A stretch of DNA of 37,134 bases from a virus: IMG/VR virus record IMGVR_UViG_3300006128_000025, positions 1 through 37,134 of that record; one strand, 5' to 3'. The notes under the pieces are model-generated. The model saw only the letters and a program-made list of their open reading frames with translations, did not search any database and was not told the DNA's origin. This document shows, one piece after another, positions 5,297 through 37,134 of the stretch. Each line of letters begins with the position of its first letter. The stretch's first letter is position 1. A program made the position numbers and the translations under genes.

Positions 5297-5305
5297 TTGG
5301 TGTGC

Positions 5306-5334
5306 ATTATATCAATATCTGTATAACTAATCAA
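5306..5334 (-). promoter_or_regulatory. Promoter of the terS-like gene
   Basis: On the minus strand: TTGATT (5329-5334), 17-base spacer, TATAAT (5306-5311), with the extended TGA in front of the -10. Only nine bases separate the -10 from the ATG at 5296. Confidence 0.7.
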
Positions 5335-5655: not shown

Positions 5656-5684
5656 TTGACAATAAAATAGTTAGCATATACAAT
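5656..5684 (+). promoter_or_regulatory. Strong sigma70-type promoter for the replication block
   Basis: TTGACA (5656-5661), 17-base spacer, TACAAT (5679-5684). It is the best full consensus promoter in the window. Expected start near 5691, giving a leader of about 165 bases. Confidence 0.8.
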
Positions 5685-5690
5685 AGACGT

Positions 5691-5854
5691 AATGCCGAGC
5701 GTGCAGGGTAACGCAAGCAGAAATTAATCAATCGTTAGCACAAGATAGAAGTAGAGTGCTAGTTTGTAACTAACAATTGGTCGATTGGCAATGGGCGATC
5801 GCCATAAGTATCGCCTTACCCTACAAGTAATAAATAATAAATGACGGGGGTTTT
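5691..5854 (+). ncRNA. Candidate structured RNA B / long 5' leader
   Basis: Lies directly downstream of the 5656-5684 promoter and ends at the ATG at 5855. Arms: AGGGTAA 5705-5711 with TTACCCT 5816-5822 closing the fold; CAATCG 5729-5734 with CGATTG 5782-5787; TAGCAC 5736-5741 with GTGCTA 5756-5761; GGCGAT 5794-5799 with ATCGCC 5810-5815, which abuts the closing stem as if stacked on it. This could be a cis-regulatory leader or a separate RNA. It matches no riboswitch I recognise. The AGGGTAA motif also occurs in RNA A (5457-5463). Confidence 0.5.
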
Positions 5855-10905: not shown

Positions 10906-10914
10906 TGTTATAAT
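10906..10914 (+). promoter_or_regulatory. Extended -10 promoter directly before the 61-aa gene
   Basis: TGTTATAAT ending eight bases before the ATG at 10923, too close for a Shine-Dalgarno; implies a leaderless mRNA. Confidence 0.6.
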
Positions 10915-10922
10915 ATATAGCT

Positions 10923-11108
10923 ATGGAAAAACAAAAACAATTAGGATTTGAAATATTAGACATGACTATTGATGAAATAGTCGAAACGTTAGTAGCACAA
11001 CGTAGAGAAGCTGAATCTCGTGAAAAAGCACAGCAAGTTGGAAGTTTTGTTATACGAGAATGTTCAGATGTCGATTGGGATCCGGATTCATTACCTCTTT
11101 ATGATTGA
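10923..11108 (+). CDS. Hypothetical acidic protein, 61 aa (leaderless)
   Basis: Last rightward gene. Helical, acidic (LDMTIDEIVETLVAQRREAE), with an Asp-rich end (CSDVDWDPDSLPLYD). Own extended -10 promoter and no leader. Its end overlaps the convergent late gene by 10 bases with no terminator in between. A separate promoter for so small a gene suggests a timing role. No family recognised. Confidence 0.6.
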   Translation: MEKQKQLGFEILDMTIDEIVETLVAQRREAESREKAQQVGSFVIRECSDVDWDPDSLPLYD

Positions 11109-21190: not shown

Positions 21191-21227
21191 AAATAAAAAA
21201 CAGGCACTCCGATTAGGGAGAACCTGT
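21191..21227 (-). terminator. Terminator-like hairpin before the 291-aa fibre gene
   Basis: On the minus strand ACAGG...CCTGT (21223-21227 with 21200-21204) encloses CTCC...GGAG, followed by six T then ATTT. It lies between the promoter at 21254-21262 and the fibre ATG at 21179, so it can act as an attenuator of that promoter as well as ending upstream transcripts. Confidence 0.65.
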
Positions 21228-21253
21228 CACTCTCGACTGAGTTTTCGTTTGTT

Positions 21254-21262
21254 ATTATATCA
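21254..21262 (-). promoter_or_regulatory. Extended -10 promoter for the fibre/lysis half
   Basis: TGATATAAT on the minus strand, preceded by TTTAAC and an A-run, a context shared with the 24587 promoter. Confidence 0.6.
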
Positions 21263-21284
21263 TTTTTAAGCGTTAAAGTACACA

Positions 21285-23684
21285 TTAGTTTAAAATCCAA
21301 GCTGTAGGATCTTGAGTTGGTATTAAGAAACCTTTAACTACAAGTTGGTTCATAGTATAGTCACCAGACAATGAATTAGTAGTTATTTCAGCTTCCCAGT
21401 TATTAAGCAGTTTAGTAATACGCACACGTTTTTTATCTGCTAATTGCGTTACTTGTAATGGAGCAGTTGTTACAGCCGAAAAAGCTACAGCACTAAATGC
21501 AAAGCTAGAAAATCCTATGTTATCTGCCGAACTACCAGCGGTATAAGTATAAGAAGCTAATTGACTAAGAGGTGAGTTTTTAGTTGTACCCGAGAACGTT
21601 AAATTTATTTGTCCTTGTGGTGATCCTAATTCCCAGTAAGCATATTGGATGTTAGCAAATTGAATGTGGTCTTGTGATACGTGAACTAAACCTGTTTGCA
21701 AATGAGTTTGAAAAGGTACACCGTTATCTCCATTAAAACTAGAGTTTATTTCAAGTAGATAATTACCAGCCGTAGGATTGCTTGGTACACCTAGTAAGTG
21801 AAGTACACCAGAGTTGTCGGTATATTTAATAAAATGATTTACACCAAAGTTAAACGCAGCCGGGTTCCAATTCTGTTTGGCCGTATCGTATACAAATATT
21901 TGGTTGTTAGTTGTACCGCCATAAGGTACCGACCAAAAGATTTTTTTGTCAAACTCTACTCCAGCTATAGCTTGATTAACACTATAAGTAATAGCTTTAC
22001 AATCAGGCCGAATTACAAGACTTATCTCATTAGTTGCAAGCACGTTAAACAGCGTCTGTACGCTTCCGTTTGAATAAAAGCCCGCAGGTCCAGGTGAGTA
22101 GTAATAAACGTTCTGTAGCGTCTGTACGACGCTTCTAGGGGCTGTTGTACCAAACGATTGCATAGCTTGGACAAGATTAGGTATTGTAACTGGTATATTA
22201 GCTATAAATTGCGTGGTTAATTGACAATGCCATACTGAACCATAGCCTGAAGCTTCTGACAACAAAATAGTAGTCATAGGCGTACCTTTGCCGTCCCTAA
22301 ATTGTCCTACCCAGCGTGGTGTTTCAGTTGAGCCGTATTTAATGTCTGTCCAACCACCACCAACAAAAGGTGAAAAACCTAATGAATAATTAAGTTGTGA
22401 ACCAGCCCAATAAAGTCGGTTAGGGTTAGCAGGGTCACCAATAGCCCATAATCTGTTGTCTGATAATCCTACCCAGCTAAACTTTGGTGCAGCCGTAGTA
22501 TCTGATATAGGAGCAACAATAAAATTGTTTACATTATGATCGCCATAATCCGTATAAGTAGTTGTACCAGTTAATGTTCCACCAATTTGAGGAACAGTAT
22601 CTAAGAAATATGGTACTCCACCAGAATTTTCAGCAAGATATATATTATAACCAATAACGTTAGGATCTGTTGATACGTTCCATGTAAGGTTTATGTATGT
22701 TGAAGAAGAATAAGATGAAGTTGCTGTATTCCACCAATTAGAACGAGCAGGAATTGTGTAAGCAGTTGGAAAAGCTGTTGCTACTGTTTCTCCAGTTTTA
22801 GTTACAGCAGATACATAATAATTAAGTGCATTTTGTGTAGTAGCTGTGTTATGTGTTGTAACACCACTACCAAATCCTAAAGGTACACCACTGGGTGAAT
22901 AGTTAGTTGTTGCAGGAATTGTTGGTGCGGTTACTTGTGAAAAACCTACCCAGCTAAATGGAGAAGTAGTAAGATCTACATATCCAAAATTGTCTACACC
23001 ATTACTAATTAATACTTTGTTTTGAAATTGGAGCAAGTTAGTCCAAATTTGATTTCCAGATTTAACTAATGCATATTGTGCGTGCGTTGCAGCTGTAGTT
23101 CCATTGTACCCACGGGTTACTGTAAGCGTAGTAGTTCCAGCACCAGCTGTAACATACATTTGTTCGTTGTCTATAGTTAATCCGTAACCGTTAGATGATG
23201 GAAGTGATGCAGCAGTTGTAATTGAAATACTTGTAGCTGTTGTTGAAGATATAGCTGTTGCAAGCGTTGTAGTGTATTGGTTAGTTGATACAAAATGATT
23301 TGTACTTCCCGGAGTTGTAGTTGAGTTAGTTACAGTAGTCCATGATCCACCATCTTTTGAATATTTAAGAATACCATTGTCTACTATCATTAAGTAATTA
23401 ACAGCAGCACCAGTGGTTGTGTTAAACGTCGTACAGTCAGTTCCACCTGTTACTGGTCCAGTATAAGCAGCACCATAATTCTTTGATCCCCAACGGGTAG
23501 TCCATACACCGTCTTGCGACATCATCATATTTTTAGCTTGAACTACAGAACCAAGTGGAAGTCGGTCTTCATTTACAAATGAAATAACACCCGGTCGCCA
23601 GCTAATAGGATTACCTTGACCACCAATAACTTGCTCATAACGTTTGATGTTACTTTGTTTAATTTTAGTTGTTTTACTGGGCAT
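21285..23684 (-). CDS. Tail hub/tube protein (P22 gp10-like beta-propeller type), 799 aa
   Basis: N-terminal WRPGVISFVNEDRLPLGSVV and AKNMMMSQDGVWTTRWGSK fit the start of podovirus tail-accessory proteins that plug onto the adaptor. The body has regular beta-blade segments, an insert near residue 165-195 (TSISITTAASLPSSNGYG; TVTRGYNGTTAATHA) and an FN3-like element near 340 (VIGYNIYLAENSGGVPYFLD). It lies next to the adaptor gene, as tail-hub genes do. Family assignment is from pattern and place, not from a search. Confidence 0.6.
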   Translation of the reverse strand: MPSKTTKIKQSNIKRYEQVIGGQGNPISWRPGVISFVNEDRLPLGSVVQAKNMMMSQDGVWTTRWGSKNYGAAYTGPVTGGTDCTTFNTTTGAAVNYLMIVDNGILKYSKDGGSWTTVTNSTTTPGSTNHFVSTNQYTTTLATAISSTTATSISITTAASLPSSNGYGLTIDNEQMYVTAGAGTTTLTVTRGYNGTTAATHAQYALVKSGNQIWTNLLQFQNKVLISNGVDNFGYVDLTTSPFSWVGFSQVTAPTIPATTNYSPSGVPLGFGSGVTTHNTATTQNALNYYVSAVTKTGETVATAFPTAYTIPARSNWWNTATSSYSSSTYINLTWNVSTDPNVIGYNIYLAENSGGVPYFLDTVPQIGGTLTGTTTYTDYGDHNVNNFIVAPISDTTAAPKFSWVGLSDNRLWAIGDPANPNRLYWAGSQLNYSLGFSPFVGGGWTDIKYGSTETPRWVGQFRDGKGTPMTTILLSEASGYGSVWHCQLTTQFIANIPVTIPNLVQAMQSFGTTAPRSVVQTLQNVYYYSPGPAGFYSNGSVQTLFNVLATNEISLVIRPDCKAITYSVNQAIAGVEFDKKIFWSVPYGGTTNNQIFVYDTAKQNWNPAAFNFGVNHFIKYTDNSGVLHLLGVPSNPTAGNYLLEINSSFNGDNGVPFQTHLQTGLVHVSQDHIQFANIQYAYWELGSPQGQINLTFSGTTKNSPLSQLASYTYTAGSSADNIGFSSFAFSAVAFSAVTTAPLQVTQLADKKRVRITKLLNNWEAEITTNSLSGDYTMNQLVVKGFLIPTQDPTAWILN

Positions 23685-23692
23685 TTATCCTC

Positions 23693-24514
23693 CTACGCGT
23701 AACCGGTACCATTGTTGGTCCAGAATCCGCTATTCATTCTATTAGGTAGGTAAGTACTGTAACCAATAAGAGCATCAACATCTTTAACATAGTCATCTTG
23801 GAAGTTAGCACTCATCTCTTGTGCCATACGCATGTTGAGAAGTGAGTAGTTAGCCTTGTCTTCCATAATCTGGTAAAGGGTAGTATTAAAGTTATTAGCA
23901 GATACCTGTGCAGATACTTTGTAAATAATAAAGTTAGGGTCGCTCATTTCAGGAGTGTCGTTTGGATTTTGAAGAGCACCTGAACTTGTTACGTCAGGAA
24001 TGTTAGCAAACTTGTAATAACGAAAAGAGATTGTAGCACCTATTTCAGCAGAACCAGCTTGTGGCCACCAGCCCATTATTAAGTTATAACCTGATACCGG
24101 GTTACCACTAATATAAAACTCTGGAAGTGAGTTACGTGGGTTAAGAGCCATTTCATTAAGTTTTTTAAGTCTAAATGCACGTACGTTTGGTGCAGAATTA
24201 GTTGAAGATGGATACGTTATGTTTATTGTACCGTCAAACATAAATTTAAAGTCACCTGGAAGCGGTATTGTTATCGGAGTAGTAGTAGTGGAAGGTGTAG
24301 CTGTAATAGTGTAATAAGCAGGCTGATATACCCATAACTCATCCCATAATACACCACGTTCGTTTTCCCATGTAGGAATAGCAAGAGAACGAATCATACC
24401 AACGTATATATTGTATTCTTGTGAACCTACTACTGGTGCCGTAGGATCATTAAGTGTCTGTAACTGAATGGCATTGATGATGTTTTGGTAACTCATCGGA
24501 CTCGTATTTGCCAT
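23693..24514 (-). CDS. Head-tail adaptor (SU10/P22 gp4-like), 273 aa
   Basis: N-terminal SPMSYQNIINAIQLQTLND and MIRSLAIPTWENERGVLWDE are helices typical of adaptors that dock on the portal ring. A beta insert (TITATPSTTTTPITIPLPGDF), a strand-rich middle and a C-terminal helical stretch follow (NYSLLNMRMAQEMSANFQDD). Preceded by its own promoter-hairpin cassette. Lies directly before the tail hub gene. Confidence 0.6.
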   Translation of the reverse strand: MANTSPMSYQNIINAIQLQTLNDPTAPVVGSQEYNIYVGMIRSLAIPTWENERGVLWDELWVYQPAYYTITATPSTTTTPITIPLPGDFKFMFDGTINITYPSSTNSAPNVRAFRLKKLNEMALNPRNSLPEFYISGNPVSGYNLIMGWWPQAGSAEIGATISFRYYKFANIPDVTSSGALQNPNDTPEMSDPNFIIYKVSAQVSANNFNTTLYQIMEDKANYSLLNMRMAQEMSANFQDDYVKDVDALIGYSTYLPNRMNSGFWTNNGTGYA

Positions 24515-24531
24515 GTATTTCCTTTCTTAAT

Positions 24532-24557
24532 AAAAAAAACACTCCAACAAGGGAGTG
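24532..24557 (-). terminator. Strong terminator-like hairpin before the adaptor gene
   Basis: On the minus strand CACTCC (24552-24557 complement) and GGAGTG (24540-24545 complement) form a 6-bp stem followed by eight T. A smaller hairpin GCTC...GAGC (24563-24576) precedes it. It lies between the promoter at 24587-24595 and the adaptor ATG at 24514. Confidence 0.75.
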
Positions 24558-24586
24558 CTTCAGCTCTGCTGTGAGCAATCAACTGT

Positions 24587-24595
24587 ATTATAACA
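24587..24595 (-). promoter_or_regulatory. Extended -10 promoter for the adaptor gene
   Basis: TGTTATAAT on the minus strand, with TTTTAACTG and an A-run upstream as at 21254. Confidence 0.6.
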
Positions 24596-24612
24596 TTTTT
24601 ACAGTTAAAATC

Positions 24613-27600
24613 CTACCCTTTTATTTTAATAGAACGTTGTTTAGCAAGACGTACAGGCCGTGATTTAGGTGCTTTTTTTAAACGAACTTTAATGCTTTTA
24701 GCTTTTTTAGCTCGATAAACAATAGGTTTAATTCTACGTGTACCACTTCCCGGTACTGTAGTGCCAGAAGGAAATCCACCATTTTGCATAATTTGATATA
24801 CACCCGTTGATGCATCTTTACCAATATCATAACGACCCAAATTAGATACATCTTTTAAGAATGTTTGTCCTTGCTTAGATTCTGCATTTACATTTTGACC
24901 AATTGTTTGATTAGGAAATTGTGGATTAACGTATTTAAATTGTGAACCAAGGTTAGTTACTTCCCATAGATTAACATCAGTAAGATATTGCCGTAATTTT
25001 GCATTGTTATTAATTAAATTAGCTCTGGCAGCTTTAGATGCTGTATCTGCACCTTGAGGCATTGAATCTAATATTTTTTGTATTTCTGAACTAGCTTGCG
25101 GATAACCTTGTAATTGTGGTTGACCACGTTGTTTTGCAACAGCAGCAGAATGTACGGCTAATTGATCAAATACTGTGTTAAGAACAGCTTTATTAGCTTT
25201 AAAATAATTTGCAGCTTCTACTGGGTCTGATTGTGCTAATTGTTGGTAATTAGTTACAATTTGTTGGCTAGCTTGAGATATATTTAATTGATCAACTGGG
25301 TCAGGTGTTGATGGATGTTTTGTCCAATAATCATCAATAGCATTTTGTGTCCATCCTAAATTTTGTAAATAATTAGTAACATTAGCTTGATAGTTTTGTG
25401 AATATTTACCTAAATCAGCTTGATAAGCAGCAAGCCACCCATTAGCACCACCATTTGCTTGCATTAAAAGAGCTTTAGCAGCTGGGTCTTGATTTAATCT
25501 ATATTCAATTGCTACTAATGCTTTATCAGCGTTTTGATTACCAGCAAAATCTGTACCTGTACCTTCAAGTTTGTATAAAGGGTTTGTAGGATAATTAGGA
25601 GTAGATGTTGCTAATTCTTTATCAGCGTAAAATATTGCACCAAGCTTAGGTGATGTACCACTTGTATCAAGTTCCGTTTCATATTTTTTATCACCTGAAT
25701 ATGCATCAAATGGAGTTGCAATTTTATTACCATATATATCTGTAAGATTAGTTGGATGTAGATAATTAAATTCATTTAGTAAAGCTTGTGCAGCATTTTT
25801 GTCTGTGCCTTCTTGTCCGGGATATTGACCATTTAATAGTTTGTTTTTTACATTTTGATTATTTTGTGCAATAGCAGCATTTTGTTGTGCTTGTGGATCA
25901 TTAGGATCTACTTTAAGCCGTAAACCAAGTTGTTGTTCAAATGATTGTGCAATTGACGGGTTATTAATATTATTATTTACATTTAAGAAACCTTGTGCCG
26001 CCATTGGTATAAATGAATTTTCAGCAGCATATTTAGCTCTATCTACAAAACTTTGACCCGGTTGTTGGATAGTTTGGTTATTATAGTTTTTATTTGTAAT
26101 TAATTGATTAGCAAAGTTTATTATTGGAGCTGTACGACTAGCAAGAAATTGACTAGGATTTTTAATTAAATTAAATACTAAAGTTAATGGATCGGCCGGT
26201 AAATCAAATTGTTGTTTTTCACCCTTTTGATTTTTACCTGAAATTTTAATATTAGGACTTGTATCTTTACCAGTTAAACCTACTTCTTGTTGTAGTTCAT
26301 CTTTAGTAGGTTTGCGACCTAATATAATTGTGGTAATTGTAACTGCCAGTGCAGCTTCTAATGCTCTTTTACCTATTACAAAACCACGAGCCGCACCACC
26401 AGGAGTAAATTTACTAATTAATGGTCCTTTTCCACCACCACCACCGCCACCACCAGCACCACCACCGCCTCCACCACCGTCACCACCATCTCTTCCAAGT
26501 CCACGTGCAAATTTTGGTAATTCACGACCAGCAATATTACGTGGGAAAAACGCATCTCTAAATAATGTAAGGTTTGCTCTAAGGTAATTAGGTGCAAGAG
26601 AAAAAATACTTATTATTCTTTGTATATCTTTATTAAAACCTTGTATTATAGGGTTAATACGGCCTGCTGCAGCTGCGTTATAAACTTTTCCGAGTTCTAT
26701 ACCGTCTTTACTATAAGGATTGATTACATGGATTTTATTGTCTAATGCTGCATCTGCCATTTTAAGTAGCATTGAAGTTTCATAACGTTCAAGTGTAGTA
26801 TTATATTTAATAACTATACCCATAGCTCGCATTTGGTCTAATTTACCTGATTGCCTATATTCATCTAAATGGTTAAAAAATCCTTCTTTGGTTTCTATAA
26901 TTGATTTAAGTCCACTAAGTATTTCTTTTTGTCCTTGTATAGCATGACCTGTAATAGCATTTAAGCCTTCTACTCCATACCCAAGGTTAAAATAGTGATA
27001 CGGACTTAATAACCATTCAACACCTTTAGCTATATTGCCAGCTTTTTCTACGCTTTTTATTGCTATAGCACCAACACCTTTAATTGGTATTCTTGATTCT
27101 TTAAAATAATTTAAAAATGGTTTTATATCATCAGATACAAAAAATTTGTTCTTATTTAATTGTGTAAAATCTTTTCCATTTATTGTGGCATAAGGATCTA
27201 ACGATACATGTTCAGGGACATGAGCTTGTAAAGATTCACGCAAAAGATTAGATTGCATTTGAATACTATTATTTTTTAAGTTTAATTTAAGATCTTCAAT
27301 AACATCTTTATTTAGTGGTTTTAAAATACCACCGCTTTTTTCGTAAGCATCTGTGTAATCATTGTATTTACGTTGATACATTCTGCTAGTCCATCTATCA
27401 AATCCGGGTTCTACTTTGTCGGGTGAATAACCAACTTTACCATTGCTTAATTCAAATCTATCTTTTTGTGGTACACCTAATTTATCTAATTGTTCTTTAT
27501 CAGCTTGAAAATATAACGGTGCAGTATTGCCATCATTACGTTTTAATTCCATTCGACCAGAAATACGTTTAACAGCTAAGTTATGATCCATGTAATCAAT

Positions 27601-29631
27601 AATGTCGTTTTTAAGCTCATCAAATAATTCTGGATCATCTAATTTACCTTTAGGTATTAAATTACCATTAACGGCGTCGGATAATAATTCTCTATCGTTT
27701 TTAGATAATTTTTTAGCTTTATTTTCTATTGCGTTAAGTAAATCTTCTAAATCATTGTAATGACCGACAGCTTCGGCAATAGCAGTTTTAGTTCTATATT
27801 CTAATGGTTGTTCATAATCAGCGTGCCATTGAGGCTGGTACTTTGTTTGTTGTGCCGGATCATTTACATCAGGCCGTCTATTTTCTTGTGATACATCAGA
27901 TATAATTTTTTTAACTGGTTCTTCAGTAGGTAAATTATCTTCAATAACTGCATTTTTAATTGTAGCTTCATAGTCTTTGCGAATATCATAAGCATCTAAT
28001 TCTTCTTTAGGTATTTCAGGATTTTTATTTTCAAAATCGTTACGAGCTTGACTTTCATAAGTTGTGTCAGATTTTAATTTTCCAGTTTCAAGTTCTTTTA
28101 ATTCTTTGGCACGTAATTCAATCATTTTGTCAATATTGCGGTTAGCAGCTATTATTGATGATAAACGTTCCATTGCTTTTGATTGTTCATGTCGTTTTAA
28201 TGCAGTTTCTTGTTCTAGATTAGGTTGAGTTCTATAACTTACATTTGAATCAGGACGTTTTGTATATTCCTGTTGCATTTCGCCATTATAATCAGTTGGC
28301 TTTATATCTGTTCCATTATCTTTAAGGTTTTGCAAATCCGTCATGCGTTTTTCATTATTAAGCATATCTGGATGATCTTCAGGTAAACCTTGATCCATCA
28401 TACGTGCTCTATTAATAGTTGTACGTTCTAATTCATTATCAATATTAGGTGTTTCTATTCGTGGGACTGGGGTGTCAGTTTGATTGTAGATATCGGTATC
28501 ATTTTCTTTGGCATTTTTTAATAACGTTTTTATATCACTAAGTGCTGTTGCTTGTGCTACTGTTCTTTTATTTAAAGGTATAGAAGATAATTCATTATGT
28601 TCATCAATTAAATCAAACATTTGTTTTTCGCTTAAATTGACGTTATTGCCTTTAAAATCTGTCGAAATATATCCAGAAGATGAAGGCTTTTCTAGAGGTT
28701 GTGTTTGTTCTAATTCACCTAAACGGTCATCAATTTTTTGAATATGTTGAGCTGTTTGAGATAAATTATCAATTCTATTTGGGTCATCAACTGCTAGTTT
28801 AAGTGCGTCATGATTATTTTTTTCAATATTAAGTTTATTTAATTCATCAGCAGATTGTTTAATAGGAATATCATTATTTGCTATTTTATCAAATGTATTA
28901 TTTTTAATTGAATTTTCAATATTAGATGTAGTAGGAGCTGGTACAATTTTTTTTGCTACATTTGCTGCTTCTTCAGCTGCGGATTGTTTAGCTATATCAC
29001 CAACACCACCACCTGTAGAACCCAAAGCTATATTTGTTGAATATGCGGCAAGTTTTTGTAATCCTTCTTTACTAATAATTAATTTACCTTGCGAATTACG
29101 TGTAACATCATTTCCAGTTGGCATTTGGGCACCACCACCGAAATTTTGTATACCTTTTATTATTTCAATTCTGGCATTGGTTGCGGCTTGTTTATTATTT
29201 GTTAAATTAGCAGTTGCAAGTTTAATATCACCAGTTACAATGTTATGCGTAACACCTTCGTAAAGATTTTTTACTGAATTAACAACAGTATCAGAAACAT
29301 TTTTTCCATAAGAAACTATATCTTTACCTATTCTATTAAGACCCCAACCCTGAGGTTGAGCTGGTTGAGGTTGTTGTGTGTCTTGTGATGGTGTAGGTAT
29401 AGATATTGATGAAGGTGCTTGAGCAGGAGCAATACTAAGATTTTGTTGAGGTAATGGAGCAACACTTATATCGCTAGGTGGTATAGGTATTGGTTTTAGA
29501 GTAGCAGTTGATGGTGGAGCTAAACTAATAGTTTGTTGTGCAGGTTGAGCAATACTAATAGGCGTTTGTGGCACATTAGGAATAACACTAATAGATTGTG
29601 GGGTTTCATCTTTAACCTTTAATGGACCCAT
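24613..29631 (-). CDS. Giant internal-virion/polyvalent-type protein, 1672 aa
   Basis: Largest gene. Residues 1-95 are Pro/Gln/Ser/Ile-rich and disordered. About 95-900 is mostly charged helix with many Asn/Asp/Glu/Lys. A more hydrophobic region follows (WLLSPYHYFNLGYGVEGLNA; FSLAPNYLRANLTLFRDAFF, about 880-1040), then a glycine linker near 1050-1070, and a likely membrane helix ALEAALAVTITTIILG near 1095. About 1130-1620 is Asn/Gln-rich helix. The last 45 residues are strongly basic. Large helical proteins beside an adaptor are commonly ejected with DNA and span the envelope. No catalytic motif seen. Function is inference. Confidence 0.6.
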   Translation of the reverse strand: MGPLKVKDETPQSISVIPNVPQTPISIAQPAQQTISLAPPSTATLKPIPIPPSDISVAPLPQQNLSIAPAQAPSSISIPTPSQDTQQPQPAQPQGWGLNRIGKDIVSYGKNVSDTVVNSVKNLYEGVTHNIVTGDIKLATANLTNNKQAATNARIEIIKGIQNFGGGAQMPTGNDVTRNSQGKLIISKEGLQKLAAYSTNIALGSTGGGVGDIAKQSAAEEAANVAKKIVPAPTTSNIENSIKNNTFDKIANNDIPIKQSADELNKLNIEKNNHDALKLAVDDPNRIDNLSQTAQHIQKIDDRLGELEQTQPLEKPSSSGYISTDFKGNNVNLSEKQMFDLIDEHNELSSIPLNKRTVAQATALSDIKTLLKNAKENDTDIYNQTDTPVPRIETPNIDNELERTTINRARMMDQGLPEDHPDMLNNEKRMTDLQNLKDNGTDIKPTDYNGEMQQEYTKRPDSNVSYRTQPNLEQETALKRHEQSKAMERLSSIIAANRNIDKMIELRAKELKELETGKLKSDTTYESQARNDFENKNPEIPKEELDAYDIRKDYEATIKNAVIEDNLPTEEPVKKIISDVSQENRRPDVNDPAQQTKYQPQWHADYEQPLEYRTKTAIAEAVGHYNDLEDLLNAIENKAKKLSKNDRELLSDAVNGNLIPKGKLDDPELFDELKNDIIDYMDHNLAVKRISGRMELKRNDGNTAPLYFQADKEQLDKLGVPQKDRFELSNGKVGYSPDKVEPGFDRWTSRMYQRKYNDYTDAYEKSGGILKPLNKDVIEDLKLNLKNNSIQMQSNLLRESLQAHVPEHVSLDPYATINGKDFTQLNKNKFFVSDDIKPFLNYFKESRIPIKGVGAIAIKSVEKAGNIAKGVEWLLSPYHYFNLGYGVEGLNAITGHAIQGQKEILSGLKSIIETKEGFFNHLDEYRQSGKLDQMRAMGIVIKYNTTLERYETSMLLKMADAALDNKIHVINPYSKDGIELGKVYNAAAAGRINPIIQGFNKDIQRIISIFSLAPNYLRANLTLFRDAFFPRNIAGRELPKFARGLGRDGGDGGGGGGGAGGGGGGGGKGPLISKFTPGGAARGFVIGKRALEAALAVTITTIILGRKPTKDELQQEVGLTGKDTSPNIKISGKNQKGEKQQFDLPADPLTLVFNLIKNPSQFLASRTAPIINFANQLITNKNYNNQTIQQPGQSFVDRAKYAAENSFIPMAAQGFLNVNNNINNPSIAQSFEQQLGLRLKVDPNDPQAQQNAAIAQNNQNVKNKLLNGQYPGQEGTDKNAAQALLNEFNYLHPTNLTDIYGNKIATPFDAYSGDKKYETELDTSGTSPKLGAIFYADKELATSTPNYPTNPLYKLEGTGTDFAGNQNADKALVAIEYRLNQDPAAKALLMQANGGANGWLAAYQADLGKYSQNYQANVTNYLQNLGWTQNAIDDYWTKHPSTPDPVDQLNISQASQQIVTNYQQLAQSDPVEAANYFKANKAVLNTVFDQLAVHSAAVAKQRGQPQLQGYPQASSEIQKILDSMPQGADTASKAARANLINNNAKLRQYLTDVNLWEVTNLGSQFKYVNPQFPNQTIGQNVNAESKQGQTFLKDVSNLGRYDIGKDASTGVYQIMQNGGFPSGTTVPGSGTRRIKPIVYRAKKAKSIKVRLKKAPKSRPVRLAKQRSIKIKG
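26420..26490 (-). repeat. GGN trinucleotide tract coding a glycine linker
   Basis: Plus strand shows CCA/CCG/CCT repeats, coding about 18 glycines broken by one Ala and two Asp in the 1672-aa protein. GC content here is far above its surroundings; a likely slippage site. Confidence 0.8.
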
Positions 29632-29640
29632 TTAATTCTC

Positions 29641-30702
29641 CTAACGGTTTAGTATTTGTGATAGACCTTGAGTACTACCTTGTAAATTTGGTGAAGGTAA
29701 TGGAAGAGTAGCCCCGGGTGTTGTAGGTGCTGTAGCCATTGGAGCGTTTGCAGTTACTTGATTACCTGAATTAATTGAATTTGTATAAGCTGTTGTAGCA
29801 GCGTTTACATTGTCGTTCAAACTTTGTAAATCAGCTAATGTAGTAGCATCTAATGCTTGTTTAGTGTAATAAATTTGATCTCGTGCTTGAGAACCTACTG
29901 CTGTTGAAAGTTGATTTTGAAGATTTATTATGTTATTTTGGTATGTTTGTGTAATATTATCTAATGTTTGTTTTTTCTGTGTTCCAATAACCTGTTGTAC
30001 ATCTACACCATTTTTAAGGTCGGCATCAATTTGAGCTTGTAAATTTTGATTGTTTACTGCTGTATTAAGATTAATTGAAGATTGTTCTTTAGCTTGTTCT
30101 TTGCCATAGGCATATTCACCCATTTGTACAGCACTTGAACTACCAGCTCCCGTGTTACCTAATGCATTTTGAAAACCTTGATTTTGACCTCTAATTGAAT
30201 CAGCAAGTTGTGCAAGTGAAAGTTGTTTTAAAGCGGTATTGCCTGCTTGTTGTTGTCCTAAAACATTTACTTGACCTTGTGTTGTATCTGCACTTTGTTG
30301 AGATAATGCACTATAATAAGCGTTTGTATCACCTACGTTTTGTGCATAATTTGCTGGACCTGAAACCATTAATTGATTAATGTAATTTTTAATTGGGTTA
30401 GAATAGGTAGTTTTAATAGCTTCCGATAATTGAGCTGTTGCTAAAGGGTCTAAACCTGTTGATGTACCGCTTGTAACTGCTGTATTAATATTTCCTGCGT
30501 TTGGATTGTTATTGGGATCTGTAGCCGTGTTTTGTCCCGGAGGAGTTAGTTGAACATCTGTTGCATTTGAACCTTGTATTAACCCTGCTGGATAATTAGT
30601 TACACCAAGTGTATTGCCTTGTAATGCGTTACTCATTCCTGCACCTGCTTGTGGATTGCTTGCACCATATTGTGGATTGCCTGCACCTCCTTGTAAATCC
30701 AT
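29641..30702 (-). CDS. Gln/Asn-rich helical internal-type protein, 353 aa
   Basis: Residues 1-85 are low-complexity (Gly/Asn/Pro/Gln). About 85-320 is long amphipathic helix rich in Gln/Ala/Asn (DPLATAQLSEAIKTTYSNP; LKQLSLAQLADSIRGQNQG; ITQTYQNNIINLQNQL). The end is Pro/Thr-rich. The composition matches ejected core proteins of podoviruses. Gene order, before the 1672-aa protein, supports an internal-core role. Preceded by a promoter-attenuator cassette. Confidence 0.55.
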   Translation of the reverse strand: MDLQGGAGNPQYGASNPQAGAGMSNALQGNTLGVTNYPAGLIQGSNATDVQLTPPGQNTATDPNNNPNAGNINTAVTSGTSTGLDPLATAQLSEAIKTTYSNPIKNYINQLMVSGPANYAQNVGDTNAYYSALSQQSADTTQGQVNVLGQQQAGNTALKQLSLAQLADSIRGQNQGFQNALGNTGAGSSSAVQMGEYAYGKEQAKEQSSINLNTAVNNQNLQAQIDADLKNGVDVQQVIGTQKKQTLDNITQTYQNNIINLQNQLSTAVGSQARDQIYYTKQALDATTLADLQSLNDNVNAATTAYTNSINSGNQVTANAPMATAPTTPGATLPLPSPNLQGSTQGLSQILNR

Positions 30703-30717
30703 AAAAATCTCCTATTT

Positions 30718-30764
30718 AAAAAAGAGTCATACCTAAAAGAAGGCACAACTCTTTGATTTCAAAG
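30718..30764 (-). terminator. Terminator with overlapping alternative hairpin before the 353-aa gene
   Basis: On the minus strand the 7-bp stem AAAGAGT/ACTCTTT (30748-30754 with 30721-30727), with inner CCT/AGG pairing, is followed by a T-run. A second perfect hairpin, CTTTGA/TCAAAG (30751-30764), shares bases with its 5' arm, so the two are mutually exclusive, as in attenuators. Confidence 0.6.
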
Positions 30765-30779
30765 TCATTGATTACATAC

Positions 30780-30788
30780 ATTATATCA
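30780..30788 (-). promoter_or_regulatory. Extended -10 promoter for the 353-aa gene
   Basis: TGATATAAT on the minus strand, downstream of the 86-aa gene's stop. Confidence 0.6.
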
Positions 30789-30804
30789 GAAAAGAAGCTT
30801 TATA

Positions 30805-31065
30805 TCAACTAAACTTCCAGTCCCTATCAACTTTTTGAGCAATTTCACCTAGTTTTTCTATTTTATCTTTATCACCATTAATAACAGCAGCTTTCATTTG
30901 TTCTCGTAGCTTTTGAATAGCCGGTGAACGTTGCTGTAAATTAATAGCGTAAATAATATCGTTTGCACGACGTTTTTCTAATTCAGATGTATTAGGATCA
31001 GAAAGTTTTTTTTGCATTTTTAAATAATCAGCTTGTCGAGAAGCATCTAACTTACGTGGATCCAT
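30805..31065 (-). CDS. Hypothetical head-region protein, 86 aa
   Basis: The MDPRKL start at 31065 (after TAAT of the previous gene, with AAGGA upstream) is preferred to 31083. Entirely helical and basic (YLKMQKKLSDPNTSELEKRR; IQKLREQMKAAV). Perhaps a head-completion or chaperone protein. No family recognised. Confidence 0.6.
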   Translation of the reverse strand: MDPRKLDASRQADYLKMQKKLSDPNTSELEKRRANDIIYAINLQQRSPAIQKLREQMKAAVINGDKDKIEKLGEIAQKVDRDWKFS

Positions 31066-31066
31066 A

Positions 31067-31375
31067 TTACGATCCTTCTGCAAATGAATAACCGAGGTCT
31101 TTAAGCCTGCGTGTTACGTCCATAGGTTCCCAGTTAAGGATTTCAGCTATTTGGTCTATGTTTGCATCACGTGCTTCATAATGTTTTTTAATAAAACCAT
31201 CGATTTGATTATCTACACCTTTAACAGTACTTAAATCTTCAGTATCAATTTCTTCATAAAGTTCATCAAGACTTTTTTGTTTAGCAATAATTCCGTGTAC
31301 AGGTACTTTTTCTTCTGTAAGTGGAACCATTATGCCTGCATCTGTTGATGCTGGTGTTGCCGGTTTGCTTGCCAT
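31067..31375 (-). CDS. Hypothetical head-region protein, 102 aa
   Basis: AAGGAG site before the ATG. Disordered N-terminus, acidic helix (LDELYEEIDTEDLSTV), then a C-terminal winged-helix-like element (NIDQIAEILNWEPMDVTRRL then KDLGY). It is the gene after the capsid, separated from it by a terminator hairpin, so it should be made in lower amounts. Confidence 0.6.
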   Translation of the reverse strand: MASKPATPASTDAGIMVPLTEEKVPVHGIIAKQKSLDELYEEIDTEDLSTVKGVDNQIDGFIKKHYEARDANIDQIAEILNWEPMDVTRRLKDLGYSFAEGS

Positions 31376-31390
31376 TATTTTCTCCTTATT

Positions 31391-31430
31391 TAATTAAAAG
31401 AAGGTAGAAGCGATAAAACTCCTACCTCCT
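31391..31430 (-). terminator. Terminator downstream of the capsid gene
   Basis: 12-bp stem on the minus strand (31419-31430 pairs with 31399-31410, two G-U pairs), 8-base loop, then TTTAATTAAAT. Ends strong capsid transcription just before the ribosome site of the 102-aa gene. No promoter lies between. Confidence 0.7.
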
Positions 31431-31452
31431 ATGACTTTATTCTGTTTATCTA

Positions 31453-32397
31453 TTAAGAAATAGATGCACCAGATATAACGTCGATGACCCATGATGAGTT
31501 CAAAGTCTTTGCAGCGAACTGACCAGCCCATGAAATGGTGTGGTATCGTTCTGCAGCATTGGCTGAATCTGCACCTGTGACAATGTAGAGCTTTGGAGCG
31601 TCTAATTGATTGTCGTATACACCAAATGCTTCTCGTCCGTGGATGAAGTTGTGGTATTGAGTTGTAGGAGTAGCAGTTTGAGTAGTAGTCTGACCTTGGT
31701 TAGATACTAGGAAACGTACACCATACAAAGCACCAATTTCACCAGCGTAAAGAGCTTGTACATTTGAGTATGCTGCTGCGTTCTGCCAAGTACTTGTAAG
31801 GATTAGGTCGTATTCTGACTGAGGTTGAATCTTACCGATCCAGCCAAAAGTACCATCATACATTAAAGCCTTATTTTCTTTGAGAGTTGCAACGGCTTGA
31901 GCAATATATTGAGCTTGCATCGTAGCATTGGTGTTAGCAGTAGAAGTTGGGATTGTAAGAGCAGTATTACCTGCATACAATGCGTTTCTTACTAGTGCGT
32001 CTAAAGTTTCACCCATGTTCTGAGCAACAACGTCAATTTTTTCTTTGTCGCGGTCATCAATGTCTACAGTACCCAAGAGTCGAGTAACTTGAATTGAGTT
32101 ACCATATTCCTGAAGAGTAACAGTAACCTGAGTATCAGTTAGAGTAACTAATGTTGGGTTTGTTCCTTCAGTAAGTGGAGTTACGGCTGTAGCAAGTGGT
32201 GAGAAGCGGTTAAAGATAACTTGCTTTCCAGCGTTGCCTTCTAAAGCTCGTAACTGAGCACCTTCTTGGTGTACTAACATAGCACGTGCACGTTCTAGGA
32301 ACCTTCGTTCGTAGTAAACGGCTACTTCAGCTGATAGACCACCAGGGTTTAAACTGGAGTCATAAGCAGCGGTTGTATTCTGTGTTGTATTTGCCAT
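31453..32397 (-). CDS. Major capsid protein, N4-gp56-like family, 314 aa
   Basis: Forms the HK97-fold head shell. Family features in order: EVAVYYERRFLERARAML near the N-terminus; KQVIFNRFSPLATAVTPLTE (E-loop/P-domain start); QVTVTLQEYGNSIQVTRLL; GETLDALVRNALYAGN in the spine helix region. The C-terminus has the usual aromatic AERYHTISWAGQFAAK. The length suits the family. Scaffold upstream and terminator downstream fit a head operon. Confidence 0.85.
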   Translation of the reverse strand: MANTTQNTTAAYDSSLNPGGLSAEVAVYYERRFLERARAMLVHQEGAQLRALEGNAGKQVIFNRFSPLATAVTPLTEGTNPTLVTLTDTQVTVTLQEYGNSIQVTRLLGTVDIDDRDKEKIDVVAQNMGETLDALVRNALYAGNTALTIPTSTANTNATMQAQYIAQAVATLKENKALMYDGTFGWIGKIQPQSEYDLILTSTWQNAAAYSNVQALYAGEIGALYGVRFLVSNQGQTTTQTATPTTQYHNFIHGREAFGVYDNQLDAPKLYIVTGADSANAAERYHTISWAGQFAAKTLNSSWVIDVISGASIS

Positions 32398-32417
32398 TGA
32401 ATTTTATGCCTTTGTTT

Positions 32418-33233
32418 TTAACGACGATTCATTACGAACCAGTCCTCCATCTCTTTGGAACTCATTTCGTTAAACGATTTCTGTATTTTTACAGTAGCGT
32501 TTGGACGATTAGCAGATTTCCCTTTTGATGCTGATTCTGAATTTGTCGCTCCTTGCGGATTTGTATTTGATAACGAGTCCAATACCCGAGTTAAAGGCTG
32601 TAGGAATTTCGTAAAGCTATATGTAGGGTCTTTGGCATATATGTCACCGTAAGATTCGGTAATTTCATGAACCAAGTCTTCATCATAATCATCGCTATTT
32701 GGATTAAGGACTGAATATTTGGTTTCAGCTTTTTCAATTTCTTGAGCCCGTTTCTCAGATGCTTGTTGTCGAGTTAAGTTAGATTCCAAAACCTTTGCGG
32801 TTGTTTGCATTTTCAGGTCTACTATTTGACTAGCGGCGTTGATTATATCCTGCTTAATTTGGTCAGGAGTAATCTCGCTCATCTGTGAATAGTCAGGCAA
32901 CTGAACACTTGATGGACTAACTTGGTTGTTAGACAAGACATCGGATAATGAACTGGGTTGCTGTAAAGCACTTTCTAGTTCCCTAATCTTAGTTGTTAAT
33001 TCGCTAATTCGCCTCTCTGCACGAGAAGGTCGTTGTCGAGCCCCATCACTACTATTTGCACCGTTACTCTCATCACTAGAGTCGGAATTACCATTATCCT
33101 GATCAATACCGCTATCGACATTGGCGTTAGATCGTTGTAGTGCTTCGGCACCTGCGTTCGAGTTTACATCTGATGACGAATCTGATGTTCCACCTGCAGT
33201 GGTGGTGTTTTGCGTCATTTGTGAATCAGCCAT
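32418..33233 (-). CDS. Scaffolding protein, 271 aa
   Basis: ATG 33233 has AAGGAG five bases upstream; the GTG 33254 reading would start inside that site. Residues 1-70 are disordered and Ser/Asn/Asp-rich. A coiled coil follows near 72-90 (AERRISELTTKIRELESALQ), then a second helix with VLESNLTRQQASEKRAQEI, and a C-terminal basic segment (KGKSANRPNATVKIQ) followed by a short helix expected to touch the capsid. Composition and place directly before the capsid support the role. Confidence 0.8.
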   Translation of the reverse strand: MADSQMTQNTTTAGGTSDSSSDVNSNAGAEALQRSNANVDSGIDQDNGNSDSSDESNGANSSDGARQRPSRAERRISELTTKIRELESALQQPSSLSDVLSNNQVSPSSVQLPDYSQMSEITPDQIKQDIINAASQIVDLKMQTTAKVLESNLTRQQASEKRAQEIEKAETKYSVLNPNSDDYDEDLVHEITESYGDIYAKDPTYSFTKFLQPLTRVLDSLSNTNPQGATNSESASKGKSANRPNATVKIQKSFNEMSSKEMEDWFVMNRR

Positions 33234-33276
33234 GGCTGCTCCTTTCTTACACACTTGTTAAGGCTCGTGCGTCGCC

Positions 33277-33294
33277 TGGGGGTGATGTCCCCCA
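33277..33294 (-). promoter_or_regulatory. GC-rich hairpin upstream of the scaffold gene
   Basis: TGGGGG/CCCCCA with a 6-base loop, in otherwise AT-rich DNA. No T-run on either side. Lies about 45 bases before the scaffold start; could stabilise or process the scaffold-capsid mRNA. Confidence 0.55.
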
Positions 33295-33336
33295 ACGCCT
33301 GCTCATCTATTTGGGACGAACAGGAGTTGAAGGGCA

Positions 33337-33588
33337 TTACCTATCTTTTACAATAGGATCTCCGTTCTGCTTAACACCAACAAGCATCTTATCCATCCCG
33401 ACAAAAGCAAGCGTATGCTGGTGGTCGCAGCTTCTACATATAAGATATGGCCCTTGTTGGATTGGCGAATGATAAACACCGGAAGCACTTTTCTCAGATA
33501 GTTGTTTATTGATTTTGGTAAAGTCAGGGAATTGTACAGGTTGAGCATTTAGTATTTCCTCCTTAAATTCCTTGTTGTCGTTTTCCAT
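33337..33588 (-). CDS. Hypothetical protein with C-x2-C, 83 aa
   Basis: Charged N-terminal helix (NDNKEFKEEILNAQP), then GPYLICRSCDHQHTLAFVG with two Cys and two His in a zinc-finger-like cluster. Overlaps the upstream gene by 26 nt. Another frame of the same region is open but lacks support. No family recognised. Confidence 0.6.
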   Translation of the reverse strand: MENDNKEFKEEILNAQPVQFPDFTKINKQLSEKSASGVYHSPIQQGPYLICRSCDHQHTLAFVGMDKMLVGVKQNGDPIVKDR

Positions 33589-33940
33589 TCTTAATCTTCT
33601 CCTCTACTTGAGCGACTGCTGTTTCTACGGTTAAGATAATCTTTTCTAGCTCATCAGCTATTGCATTAGTAGTGATAGTAAGACGGCCAATTTCTTCAAG
33701 TGATTTGTTAGGTATTGCAGCCTGTAATGGTTTGCCAGAACGGTATGAATTAATGGTTGCTTCAAAGTCTTTTTTAATTAATTCCCATCCTGCGTGTGAA
33801 GCAAGTGAAGCATAGGTATTAATTATTTCTTCTTCTTGTGCAACAAAATTATCATCTTCTTCAATATGTGGTTCTTGGTATAGGGCTTCATCAAAATTAA
33901 CTTTCATGTTACCCCGTATTGCTGATTGTCCTCGATTCAT
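33563..33940 (-). CDS. Hypothetical helical protein, 125 aa
   Basis: Acidic N-terminus (EPHIEEDDNFVAQEEEI), then helices including EEIGRLTITTNAIADELEKI and VETAVAQVEEKI, probably a C-terminal coiled coil. Four-base overlap with the portal end. Perhaps a portal or scaffold partner; unknown. Confidence 0.6.
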   Translation of the reverse strand: MNRGQSAIRGNMKVNFDEALYQEPHIEEDDNFVAQEEEIINTYASLASHAGWELIKKDFEATINSYRSGKPLQAAIPNKSLEEIGRLTITTNAIADELEKIILTVETAVAQVEEKIKNGKRQQGI

Positions 33941-36144
33941 AGCTGACTATTCCTTATCTTTGCCATTGCTTGTGCTATTTCTGGATCACCAATGCTCATA
34001 GGGCCTTGTGGCTGACCCATAGGTTGTCCCTGAGCCATAGGTTGTCCCTGAGCCATTTGTGGGGGCATAGGAGCAGCGTTTGGTGCTGGAGCTGGTACTT
34101 GACCCATTTGCGGTTGTACTGGCTGTTGTGGAGCTTGCATTCCGTTCTTAGCGTTTTGTAATGCAATCTTAGATTGTGTTTCCATTTGCATCTTAGCTTG
34201 TTGGTATTGCAAAAAGTCGTTTGGATCTATGTTAATGCCGGCTTGTTGAGCCATTTGTGCTGCACCAGATGGTGGTAAGTCTTTAATATTAATGTTTTCA
34301 CGTAGACTTTCTTGTGGTCCTTGCTGTTGTCCTTGTTGTCCGGGCATTCCGGGCTGTCCGGGTTGTTGTTGAGGTAGTGGTTTAAGCAAAAGTTTAGTAT
34401 CTCTTATACCACCAGTCATAAATAGTTCTTTGTAGTACTCGCCATAATCAAACATTAGTCCAGCTTGTTGTAATTGTGCGTCCATAATGCCAGGATTTGC
34501 CATTAATGTGTTGTGAATCTCAAGCAGTTGGGCGTGTTTTTCGTCCATATTTTGTTTGTAAGTAGATTTAGCTTTAATTTTGTAGACATAGCCCTTTTCG
34601 TTCTTAATTCGGCTAGGTTTAATAGTAATTTTGGCACTTTTACCATTCTTAGAGAGCTTAATTGCGTCCTGAATGTCGGGATACGTGGCTGCAATCTGGC
34701 CAATTTCTTCGTTAAACATAAATATTTCAATAGGATTGTCGTGTTCTATATTGTTTACAAGGTCAATCATGCCGTTAAACAGCTCTTCGATAGCTTTGTC
34801 CATAAAATTGGTGTCTATTTCATCACGTGTGGATTGACTAGCATTCTGAGCTTGAATAGCTTGTGGAGTTTTACCTTGTGTTGGTGTGTTAGATTCAGCA
34901 CTAGCTCGTGTAGTAGTTTGACCTGTAATGTTACTCATTATGCCTTGAAGCATTTGGAATGTAAGGTTGTTGTTGCCGTCTACATCTGGGAATTGGTGGT
35001 GACTAATGTCGTTAGGGTTAGATACAAGCCATTTAGCACCCGGTTGGAAGCGTACAGATGGCATTACAACATTACCGTTAAGTACTTTAATTGGTGGGTA
35101 AGTTCTAAGCTTTATACCATCTACAAGAAGGTTTGTAACAGTATCAATAGCGTACTGAGCGTATCGTCCTTTTTCCATGTCACCAAGTCCAATAACTGAA
35201 TCAAGTGTTGGCATAGCGTATTTAAGAACAATAGGAATCTTGCCGTTTTTGTGTGGGTTAGGTATGTTACGGATTACGATGTTACCAAAGTCAGGTAGAA
35301 AGTCTATCCAACGTCCATCTTCACCAGCTTCGTATTTAGTAACTACTTCAATTTCACCAGTATCGGTAAAAACAGTTCGCCTTCGGAATGTCCACATTGG
35401 GTTGTGTCGCAAGTAATCATCATAGCTAGTTGGTCGTGTCTTACCTTGTTTAGTTCGTTCTAGCACTTGAGCTATGGCGTCAAGGTCGTAATCATTAACT
35501 TCATTTTCTACAAGATCTTCAAGGTAATCTCGACTAATGTAATTAGACACAAACGCAAAATCACAGTTGTGCATAGAGTATCGTCCCTGTTGTGGAAAGA
35601 AGTTTCTAATAGGCACTAACCAGCAATCTGGTCCGGTGTAATTTTGAGTGTATGTCCAGTCGTAGCACATTGGCATCGTACCGTAAACATTTGAATACAT
35701 ATCCCATAGGAATAGTTTAGTTTCTAAATCATATTGGTATGTTGCATTTGGATAGATCCACTTGTGTAAAAGCAGGTCCATTAATTGCCCTTTACCTTGG
35801 TCTTGTAACCCATAGGATTGAACTGTACCGTGTGGCAAATTGGCCATTACACGCCCAGCACGTTCTATAACAATGGTAGATAAGCTACCTTCACTAAGTC
35901 TAATTTTAGAGTTATCAGGGGTTCTGCCTTGGACAAATAGTAAATCTTCGTATTCATCCCAGTCGAGGGACATGTAACGAAGTGCTTGTTGGGCTACTTG
36001 GAATTGAGATGCTAACATTCCTCGAAGTTGAGGGTCACCGCCAATAACATTGTCGGACTCTTCAAGGTTTTGCATGCGGGTGTCATAGTCGGCACCCTTG
36101 CGGTTTTTTATCTCATTGAGAAGTCTAGGTTGTTTCTTATCCAA
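33937..36144 (-). CDS. Portal protein, 735 aa
   Basis: Dodecameric ring at the head vertex for DNA entry and exit. TTG start at 36144 behind GGGAG; the next in-frame ATG would cut 22 residues or so. The body (about 60-560) has portal-type features: long helical stem and clip segments, WDEYEDLLFVQGRTP, TRASAESNTPTQGKTPQAIQ near 420-440, and a crown helix region. The C-terminal 130 residues are Gln/Pro/Met/Gly-rich, including MAQGQPMAQGQPMGQP repeats, longer than in most portals. Both SD and start codon are in a hairpin (36142-36180). Identity supported by gene order with terL, scaffold and capsid. Confidence 0.8.
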   Translation of the reverse strand: MDKKQPRLLNEIKNRKGADYDTRMQNLEESDNVIGGDPQLRGMLASQFQVAQQALRYMSLDWDEYEDLLFVQGRTPDNSKIRLSEGSLSTIVIERAGRVMANLPHGTVQSYGLQDQGKGQLMDLLLHKWIYPNATYQYDLETKLFLWDMYSNVYGTMPMCYDWTYTQNYTGPDCWLVPIRNFFPQQGRYSMHNCDFAFVSNYISRDYLEDLVENEVNDYDLDAIAQVLERTKQGKTRPTSYDDYLRHNPMWTFRRRTVFTDTGEIEVVTKYEAGEDGRWIDFLPDFGNIVIRNIPNPHKNGKIPIVLKYAMPTLDSVIGLGDMEKGRYAQYAIDTVTNLLVDGIKLRTYPPIKVLNGNVVMPSVRFQPGAKWLVSNPNDISHHQFPDVDGNNNLTFQMLQGIMSNITGQTTTRASAESNTPTQGKTPQAIQAQNASQSTRDEIDTNFMDKAIEELFNGMIDLVNNIEHDNPIEIFMFNEEIGQIAATYPDIQDAIKLSKNGKSAKITIKPSRIKNEKGYVYKIKAKSTYKQNMDEKHAQLLEIHNTLMANPGIMDAQLQQAGLMFDYGEYYKELFMTGGIRDTKLLLKPLPQQQPGQPGMPGQQGQQQGPQESLRENINIKDLPPSGAAQMAQQAGINIDPNDFLQYQQAKMQMETQSKIALQNAKNGMQAPQQPVQPQMGQVPAPAPNAAPMPPQMAQGQPMAQGQPMGQPQGPMSIGDPEIAQAMAKIRNSQL

Positions 36145-36180
36145 AGCAAAATACTCCCTTAATTAGGAGTACCTGCTTTG
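36142..36180 (-). promoter_or_regulatory. Leader hairpin masking the portal ribosome site and start codon
   Basis: CAAAGCA/TGCTTTG (36174-36180 with 36142-36148) and TACTCC/GGAGTA (36166-36171 with 36152-36157) stack around a small internal loop, with an 8-base apical loop. GGGAG lies in the upper 3' arm and the TTG codon at the base of the lower 3' arm. After the upper stem comes TTTT, so it may also terminate. Confidence 0.65.
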
Positions 36181-36202
36181 CCTAGGCTCAGTACTGGTAT
36201 GT

Positions 36203-36232
36203 ATTATAACAATTTGTTGGTGTATTCGTCAA
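36203..36232 (-). promoter_or_regulatory. Promoter of the portal gene
   Basis: On the minus strand TTGACG (36227-36232), 18-base spacer, TATAAT (36203-36208) with the TGT extension (36209-36211). The stop codon of the 103-aa gene lies inside the -10 region. Confidence 0.7.
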
Positions 36233-36515
36233 GTAAAATGTGTGATATGTGACCTTTGTTATACGTGAGTGTAAACGTACGTGCACCAGTAAAGTTATTC
36301 TTTTCGGTAGTTTCCATTTCCTGTGCAACTGACAACTTGGCTATTTCATCTGTTGGGTATTTCTTTTTAATAGACTTGCTAAGAATAATTACTTTAGGTT
36401 GGCCTTCCATGTATTTAATTTCAAGTAAGCTGTGCCCAAACTGTACTTCTTCGCCGTGGTCTATAAGTTCTTTACCAACTTCAGCCCACATTTTCCAAAA
36501 ATCATCGTGATGCAT
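36204..36515 (-). CDS. Hypothetical protein, 103 aa
   Basis: Overlaps the 67-aa gene by 14 nt. Helix (FWKMWAEVGKELIDHGEEV), strands and a Lys-rich middle (KSIKKKYPTDEIAKL), then strands ARTFTLTYNKGHISHILL. Located between terL and portal, so packaging or vertex-related. No family recognised. Confidence 0.6.
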   Translation of the reverse strand: MHHDDFWKMWAEVGKELIDHGEEVQFGHSLLEIKYMEGQPKVIILSKSIKKKYPTDEIAKLSVAQEMETTEKNNFTGARTFTLTYNKGHISHILLDEYTNKLL

Positions 36516-36713: not shown

Positions 36714-37134
36714 CTATCTATAGAATCCGTTTTTATCAAAGCCATCGACAGTTGTACCGTTGTCAGCATGGCGGTTAAATCTACTTGTTGATTGTTGATT
36801 GTATGAATCGAATCCTGAACGTGCATATTCAGGAATATCGTCATACGTTGCATTATTACTAGTTATTTGGTTTTGTTTAACAGATACTGCAAGGTAGCGA
36901 AAAGCATCAGCCCCGTTAGAACTCCAATCATGAAGTGGTTTATTATCATACACCCTCGTTTCTTCGTTATACTTTCTATGGTAATTTTTTAAGCAAGCTA
37001 TGCCTATTTCACATTTCTTTTTATCAAAATAACATCGTTGAAGTAATATTCTTGTTGCATTAATACCATCTTCAATTTTAAGTTTAGGTGCTACACGGAA
37101 ATTTATTCCGAGATTACGAGCTGTTTCTACACGA
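36714..37134 (-). CDS. terL: Terminase large subunit, C-terminal part (split by window ends)
   Basis: Continues the frame that leaves the window at position 1. Reads RVETARNLGINFRVAPKLK, then INATRILLQRCYFDKKKCE and LHDWSSNGADAFRYLAVSV, the last carrying the C-terminal catalytic Asp (ADAFRYL) of the RNase H-type nuclease that cuts the concatemer. The extra base at 37134 completes the codon broken at position 1. Stop TAG at 36714-36716. About 139 residues here. Some relatives carry a Gly-Thr-Gly-Lys-type stretch between the VRE and the R-x-E-x-A segments that is absent at this join. Confidence 0.92.
   Translation of the reverse strand, partial: RVETARNLGINFRVAPKLKIEDGINATRILLQRCYFDKKKCEIGIACLKNYHRKYNEETRVYDNKPLHDWSSNGADAFRYLAVSVKQNQITSNNATYDDIPEYARSGFDSYNQQSTSRFNRHADNGTTVDGFDKNGFYR

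Follow-up and report, generated by a model that had tools for sequence, protein, structure and literature searches.

The window analysed here comprises positions 1-37,134 of the record of an uncultured freshwater phage (IMG/VR record IMGVR_UViG_3300006128_000025). The terminase large subunit gene spans both of its ends (1-968 and 36714-37134, minus strand; compare the relative G007), indicating that the map is probably circular and complete. On the minus strand the genes for the portal, a 353-aa protein, the adaptor and a fibre are each preceded by a promoter and a structured leader. An extended −10 element of the form TGWTATAAT is present in all four cassettes, at 36211, 30788, 24595 and 21262, and is followed after 8, 9, 9 and 10 nt respectively by a shared RNA motif. 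The preliminary description had proposed four such cassettes with a common layout; they are confirmed at these positions, and all carry the motif.

36204-36515, minus: gene for a 103-aa protein, conserved in all relatives reaching the region; the 3′ end of its coding sequence contains the portal promoter
36203-36232, minus: portal promoter, −35 TTGACG (36232-36227), extended −10 TGTTATAAT (36211-36203)
30780-30788, minus: 353-aa extended −10 TGATATAAT, with −35-like TTGATA at 30808-30803
24587-24595, minus: adaptor extended −10 TGTTATAAT
21254-21262, minus: fibre extended −10 TGATATAAT

The −35 and −10 elements are separated by 18 nt in the portal promoter and 17 nt in that of the 353-aa gene, and no −35 is recognisable at the adaptor and fibre promoters. 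The window has 12 occurrences of the sequence TGNTATAAT, compared with 3.9 (maximum 9) in dinucleotide shuffles. It is followed by a strict terminator within 85 nt four times, against 0.1 in shuffles; three of these pairs are cassette sites and one (+8819) falls within coding sequence. The strict ungapped terminator scan misses the fibre site only because the stem there contains a mismatch. Two further boxes stand much closer to a gene:

5296-5314, minus: TGWTATAAT box 8-9 nt before the ATG of the terminase small subunit
10906-10923, plus: TGWTATAAT box 8-9 nt before the ATG of a 61-aa protein

As read from this spacing, the messages of these two genes are probably leaderless. The 8-10 nt gap in the four cassettes therefore probably sets the 5′ end of the RNA at the shared motif.

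Two mutually exclusive hairpins

The shared motif is a small hairpin of about 22-28 nt, here termed H1. Its elements run in the order P1 (3-5 bp), pyrimidine-N-A, P2 (2-5 bp), loop, P2′, A-purine (rarely AC) and P1′. A larger hairpin, H2, can form in the same leader. The matches to our covariance model R1 are given with each H1.

36169-36194, minus: portal H1, GTAC-TGA-GC-CTAGGCAAA-GC-AG-GTAC (P1 GTAC/GTAC, P2 GC/GC); covariation; R1 match 36166-36211
36142-36180, minus: portal H2, with the ribosome site GGGAG and the start codon TTG (36144) in its 3′ arm; no U-tract
30746-30770, minus: 353-aa H1, CAA-TGA-CTTTG-AAAT-CAAAG-AG-TTG (P1 CAA/TTG, P2 CTTTG/CAAAG); R1 match 30742-30788
30716-30754, minus: 353-aa H2, intrinsic terminator including its U-tract; gene start 30702
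24556-24577, minus: adaptor H1, TGC-TCA-CAGC-AGA-GCTG-AA-GCA (P1 TGC/GCA, P2 CAGC/GCTG); R1 match 24552-24595
24529-24561, minus: adaptor H2, intrinsic terminator with a U8 tract; gene start 24514
21221-21243, minus: fibre H1, AAC-TCA-GTC-GAGAGT-GAC-AG-GTT (P1 AAC/GTT, P2 GTC/GAC); R1 match 21217-21262
21194-21228, minus: fibre H2, intrinsic terminator with a U-tract; gene start 21179

The terminal loops of H1 are AGA, AAAT, GAGAGT/CAGAGT or 7-9 nt in length. The stems vary freely, and within some 25 nt only two adenines, one on each side of the internal loop, and one pyrimidine are invariant across the aligned sites. RNAalifold recovers P1 and P2 from the alignment unaided; in its fold a further Y-R pair closes P1, leaving an asymmetric NA/A loop. 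In the fibre leader the energy model favours another small hairpin (ACTC/GAGT) over H1. The invariance of the internal-loop adenines suggests that H1 may be recognised by a putative factor.

The segment P2′-AR-P1′ of H1 doubles as the 5′ arm of H2, which takes in P1′ and the A-R at nearly every site, the A-R being excepted in the portal leader of L027. Since they share sequence, H1 and H2 cannot coexist. A small and a larger hairpin had been described earlier as standing one after the other; both are present, but as overlapping alternatives. Nor is the larger hairpin terminator-like throughout. At the 353-aa, adaptor and fibre genes it is, with a U-tract and a separate ribosome site after H2, while at the portal it masks the start site.

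At every leader that has an H2, this is modelled to be more stable than H1, by 1.2-12.4 kcal/mol. On folding successively longer prefixes, five of six leaders form H1 before H2, H1 being weak and transient. The greater stability of H2 and the earlier formation of H1 indicate that the modelled default is OFF, and that stabilising H1 would turn the gene on. The leader of L018, where GGAG lies within H2 and is followed by U8 and then ATG, looks like an intermediate between the terminator and start-masking outputs.

Conservation and covariation in relatives

IMG/VR was searched with the MCP, portal, adaptor and 103-aa proteins, giving about 20 contigs of one family in which the homologous genes are preceded by equivalent leaders. 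In an alignment of 16 sites the covariation of H1 is 0.75, compared with 0.216 (sd 0.039) in shuffles, none of 500 of which is as high, and at most 0.11 in controls with slid partners. All eight pairs of H1 show two-sided changes; 83.6% of cells are paired, against 54% in shuffles, and P1 is 100% paired. This alignment was fitted by hand, which together with its N-padding makes the statistics somewhat optimistic; padding was used because MAFFT by itself placed the 353-type sites one column out. An alignment-free test detects H1 in all 19 leaders examined, including relatives down to 56% portal identity, where about 0.05 would be expected by chance, with a descriptor drawn from some of those leaders. 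Within the window, the four leaders are the only matches to model R1 at E < 0.01, and all four were in its training set. The held-out model R2, trained without the distant phages, matches the L018 portal leader (E = 6e-4), the G003 adaptor leader (E = 0.01) and the G004 353-type leader (E = 5e-6). In the distant G005 its two best matches are true leaders, though weak and non-significant (E = 0.5 and 4).

Individual comparisons reveal how pairing is maintained. Between our fibre leader and its L033 relative there are five differences in H1, four of which make up two exact compensations. In G003 and G004 an additional ORF stands between the cassette and the adaptor gene. Going from the first to the second of these adaptor leaders, CTCC/GGAG in the H2 stem gives way to TCTC/GAGA, both arms changing in step. 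G005, with 57% portal identity, keeps H1 at its adaptor, fibre and portal leaders. The stems are wholly different at the adaptor (ACGC/GCGT) and fibre (CGC/GCG), P1 at the portal is still GTAC/GTAC, and in two G005 leaders AC replaces the A-purine. At all three, H2 hides the ribosome site and a GTG start, and none is a terminator. In the 353-type leader of G005 a large hairpin is present without a clear H1. No model match is found in G006, the most distant of the complete relatives, whose 353-type leader has H1-like stems without H2. There is likewise no model match in four phages, cultured or named, whose capsids are related, and two leader-sequence patterns searched in viral contigs match in this phage family only.

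The preliminary description had made its reading depend on conservation of the hairpins among relatives, and they are both conserved and covarying. Attenuation-type control at each virion module, as it proposed, is supported by this conservation and by the overlap of H1 with H2, though not as a matter of termination alone, since relatives also mask starts at the adaptor and fibre. The observation thus holds, and is stronger than first described.

A probable leader switch with two outputs

The anatomy of the switch is well supported. As judged from sequence, this is a leader switch with two outputs and not only a terminator attenuator, and the presence of one motif at both terminator and start-masking hairpins fits a regulatory sensor rather than a bare terminator. 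The best reading is an antiterminator leader switch like the RAT systems, repeated across the late regulon. We consider it probable that a bistable leader follows each promoter, held OFF by H2, and that a putative trans-acting factor holding H1 turns the four modules on together. RNA from the local promoter would begin within a few nucleotides of H1, which would fold first and be displaced once the 3′ arm of H2 emerges. H2 would then stop expression, through intrinsic termination at the 353-aa, adaptor and fibre genes and, at the portal, by sequestering both the start codon and the ribosome site. The factor, which is most likely an RNA-binding protein expressed at an earlier stage of infection but could be a host protein, would recognise the invariant asymmetric internal loop and hold H1, so that all four modules come on together. 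We infer that the promoters are used and start transcription at these sites, and that in vivo the ON state is H1, stabilised by a protein acting in trans. More tentatively, and with the odds lying a little against it, the whole late regulon may be controlled by one RNA-binding activator that reads a structure-only hairpin at transcript 5′ ends. OFF would then be the default, by termination or start masking, and control would be exerted after initiation through leader RNA and not by sigma factors or polymerase modification.

Might H1 work without a factor? A kinetic attenuator, in which H1 delays H2 so that a fixed fraction of polymerases or ribosomes passes and the stoichiometry of the virion modules is tuned, an idea raised in the preliminary description, would be in keeping with the weak and transient H1 of prefix folding; nothing in the sequence demands a factor, and our search for a regulator found none. 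Yet a plain delay needs no invariant A/A internal loop amid freely varying stems, nor the same loop at both terminator and start-masking leaders, and we regard this as unlikely. Less credible again is a space-saving overlap of promoter and terminator, where H2 ends the upstream operon and H1 shields local transcripts, for example if ribosomes ending upstream disrupt H1 only on read-through RNA. The upstream stop codon does lie within the −10 itself in the portal cassette and in the 353-type leader of several relatives. However, the distance from stop to H1 is not conserved (adaptor, fibre and G005), and the H2 hairpins of the portal and of G005 are non-terminators.

Hairpins adjoin several T7 promoters, as RNase sites or in a 5′ protective role. 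Our hairpins too come directly after promoters at module boundaries, but an mRNA processing or stability element of this sort would require neither two exclusive folds, nor U-tracts, nor burial of a start codon, and there is little to commend it. The least plausible reading takes H1 as an inverted repeat in DNA, an operator close to where transcription begins, at which a repressor or activator would bind. While its fixed position 8-10 nt after the −10 would suit this, the stem sequences differ at nearly every site with pairing kept, which a reader of DNA sequence would not tolerate.

The preferred switch can be compared with known systems. Lambda-type Q works at a single site, through the DNA of a late promoter that is followed by a terminator. 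That order is shared by our cassettes, but this phage has several RNA switches, some acting on translation. In the RAT elements of BglG, SacY and LicT a short 5′ hairpin with one or more asymmetric internal loops overlaps the foot of a terminator, giving exclusive folds (PMC9981650). At the 353-aa, adaptor and fibre leaders H1 is likewise mutually exclusive with an intrinsic terminator; the portal H2 is no terminator. The phage leaders differ in serving virion genes and in that H2 can mask a start codon, and Pfam and PHROGs scans of the late-region proteins and of ten early ones found no BglG-type protein. EutV-type ANTAR systems also use a small protein-stabilised hairpin that overlaps a terminator. 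Their motif requires two hexaloops with A1 and G4 (PMC8934654), in contrast to the single hairpin here, whose loops of 3-9 nt differ in sequence. HK022 put is another phage cis-RNA lying right after a promoter. This RNA, of about 70 nt, forms two stem-loops and binds polymerase, and it needs no factor to act on distant terminators (PMC9378689), whereas H1 is a single stem of about 25 nt overlapping its terminator. The SAS/ESAS repeats of cluster K mycobacteriophages similarly stand before several genes of one actinophage genome, but are conserved sequences (PMC3203893), while here structure is conserved and stem sequence variable. At about 25 nt H1 is small for known metabolite aptamers. An Rfam search of the window and relatives gave no credible match and no family at the curated threshold, and no earlier description of the leader switch was found in the literature library searched.

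The proteins conserved in all complete relatives include no candidate factor, comprising only structural proteins, terminase, a NinG-like nuclease and a probable glycosyltransferase. A 239-aa early protein was considered as regulator and rejected, as by our own reading its sequence, which has no family match, looks like a glycosyltransferase. The 103-aa protein gives a low-confidence structure model with no significant fold match. With a defined candidate recognition site the putative regulator becomes searchable, by RNA pull-down or among small early genes. For most uncultured phages it is not known how the late genes are controlled, and here sequence alone exposes what would be a regulon-wide RNA switch. 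One sensor hairpin with two outputs in related phages would show how attenuators and translational switches interconvert.

The host and other elements in the window

The matches to the metallophosphoesterase are almost all in actinophages, and the capsid, metallophosphoesterase and Cas4-type genes are also found in Streptomyces phage Immanuel3. From these and the putative leaderless messages we infer an actinobacterial host. No prophage relatives were found in 84,980 genomes searched with capsid and portal alignments.

In a genome-wide descriptor count, matches outside the leaders, such as that at +5679, are at chance level. This one lies near an early promoter (5656-5720, plus; TTGACA and TACAAT), which is followed after 8 nt by an H1-like hairpin (TGC-CGA-GCGT...ACGC-AA-GCA).

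A second conserved structured RNA lies within the range spanned by the four cassettes.

33250-33339, minus: conserved structured RNA between the 83-aa and scaffold genes; no promoter

It comprises an invariant GGGGACATCACCCC hairpin (GGGG-ACATCA-CCCC) and then an H-type pseudoknot, in which AGGY/RCCT is combined with CGCAC/GTGTG, or CGACC/GGTCG in L015. It matches no credible Rfam family. The RNA is kept across the whole phage family, with 99.2% of cells able to pair and a covariation of 0.258 against 0.127 in shuffles (0 of 500 as high).

Lastly, a terminator-like hairpin without a promoter lies just past the major capsid gene (31399-31430, minus). Terminators are annotated at the equivalent position after the capsid gene in Bacillus phage Page and Paenibacillus phage API480.
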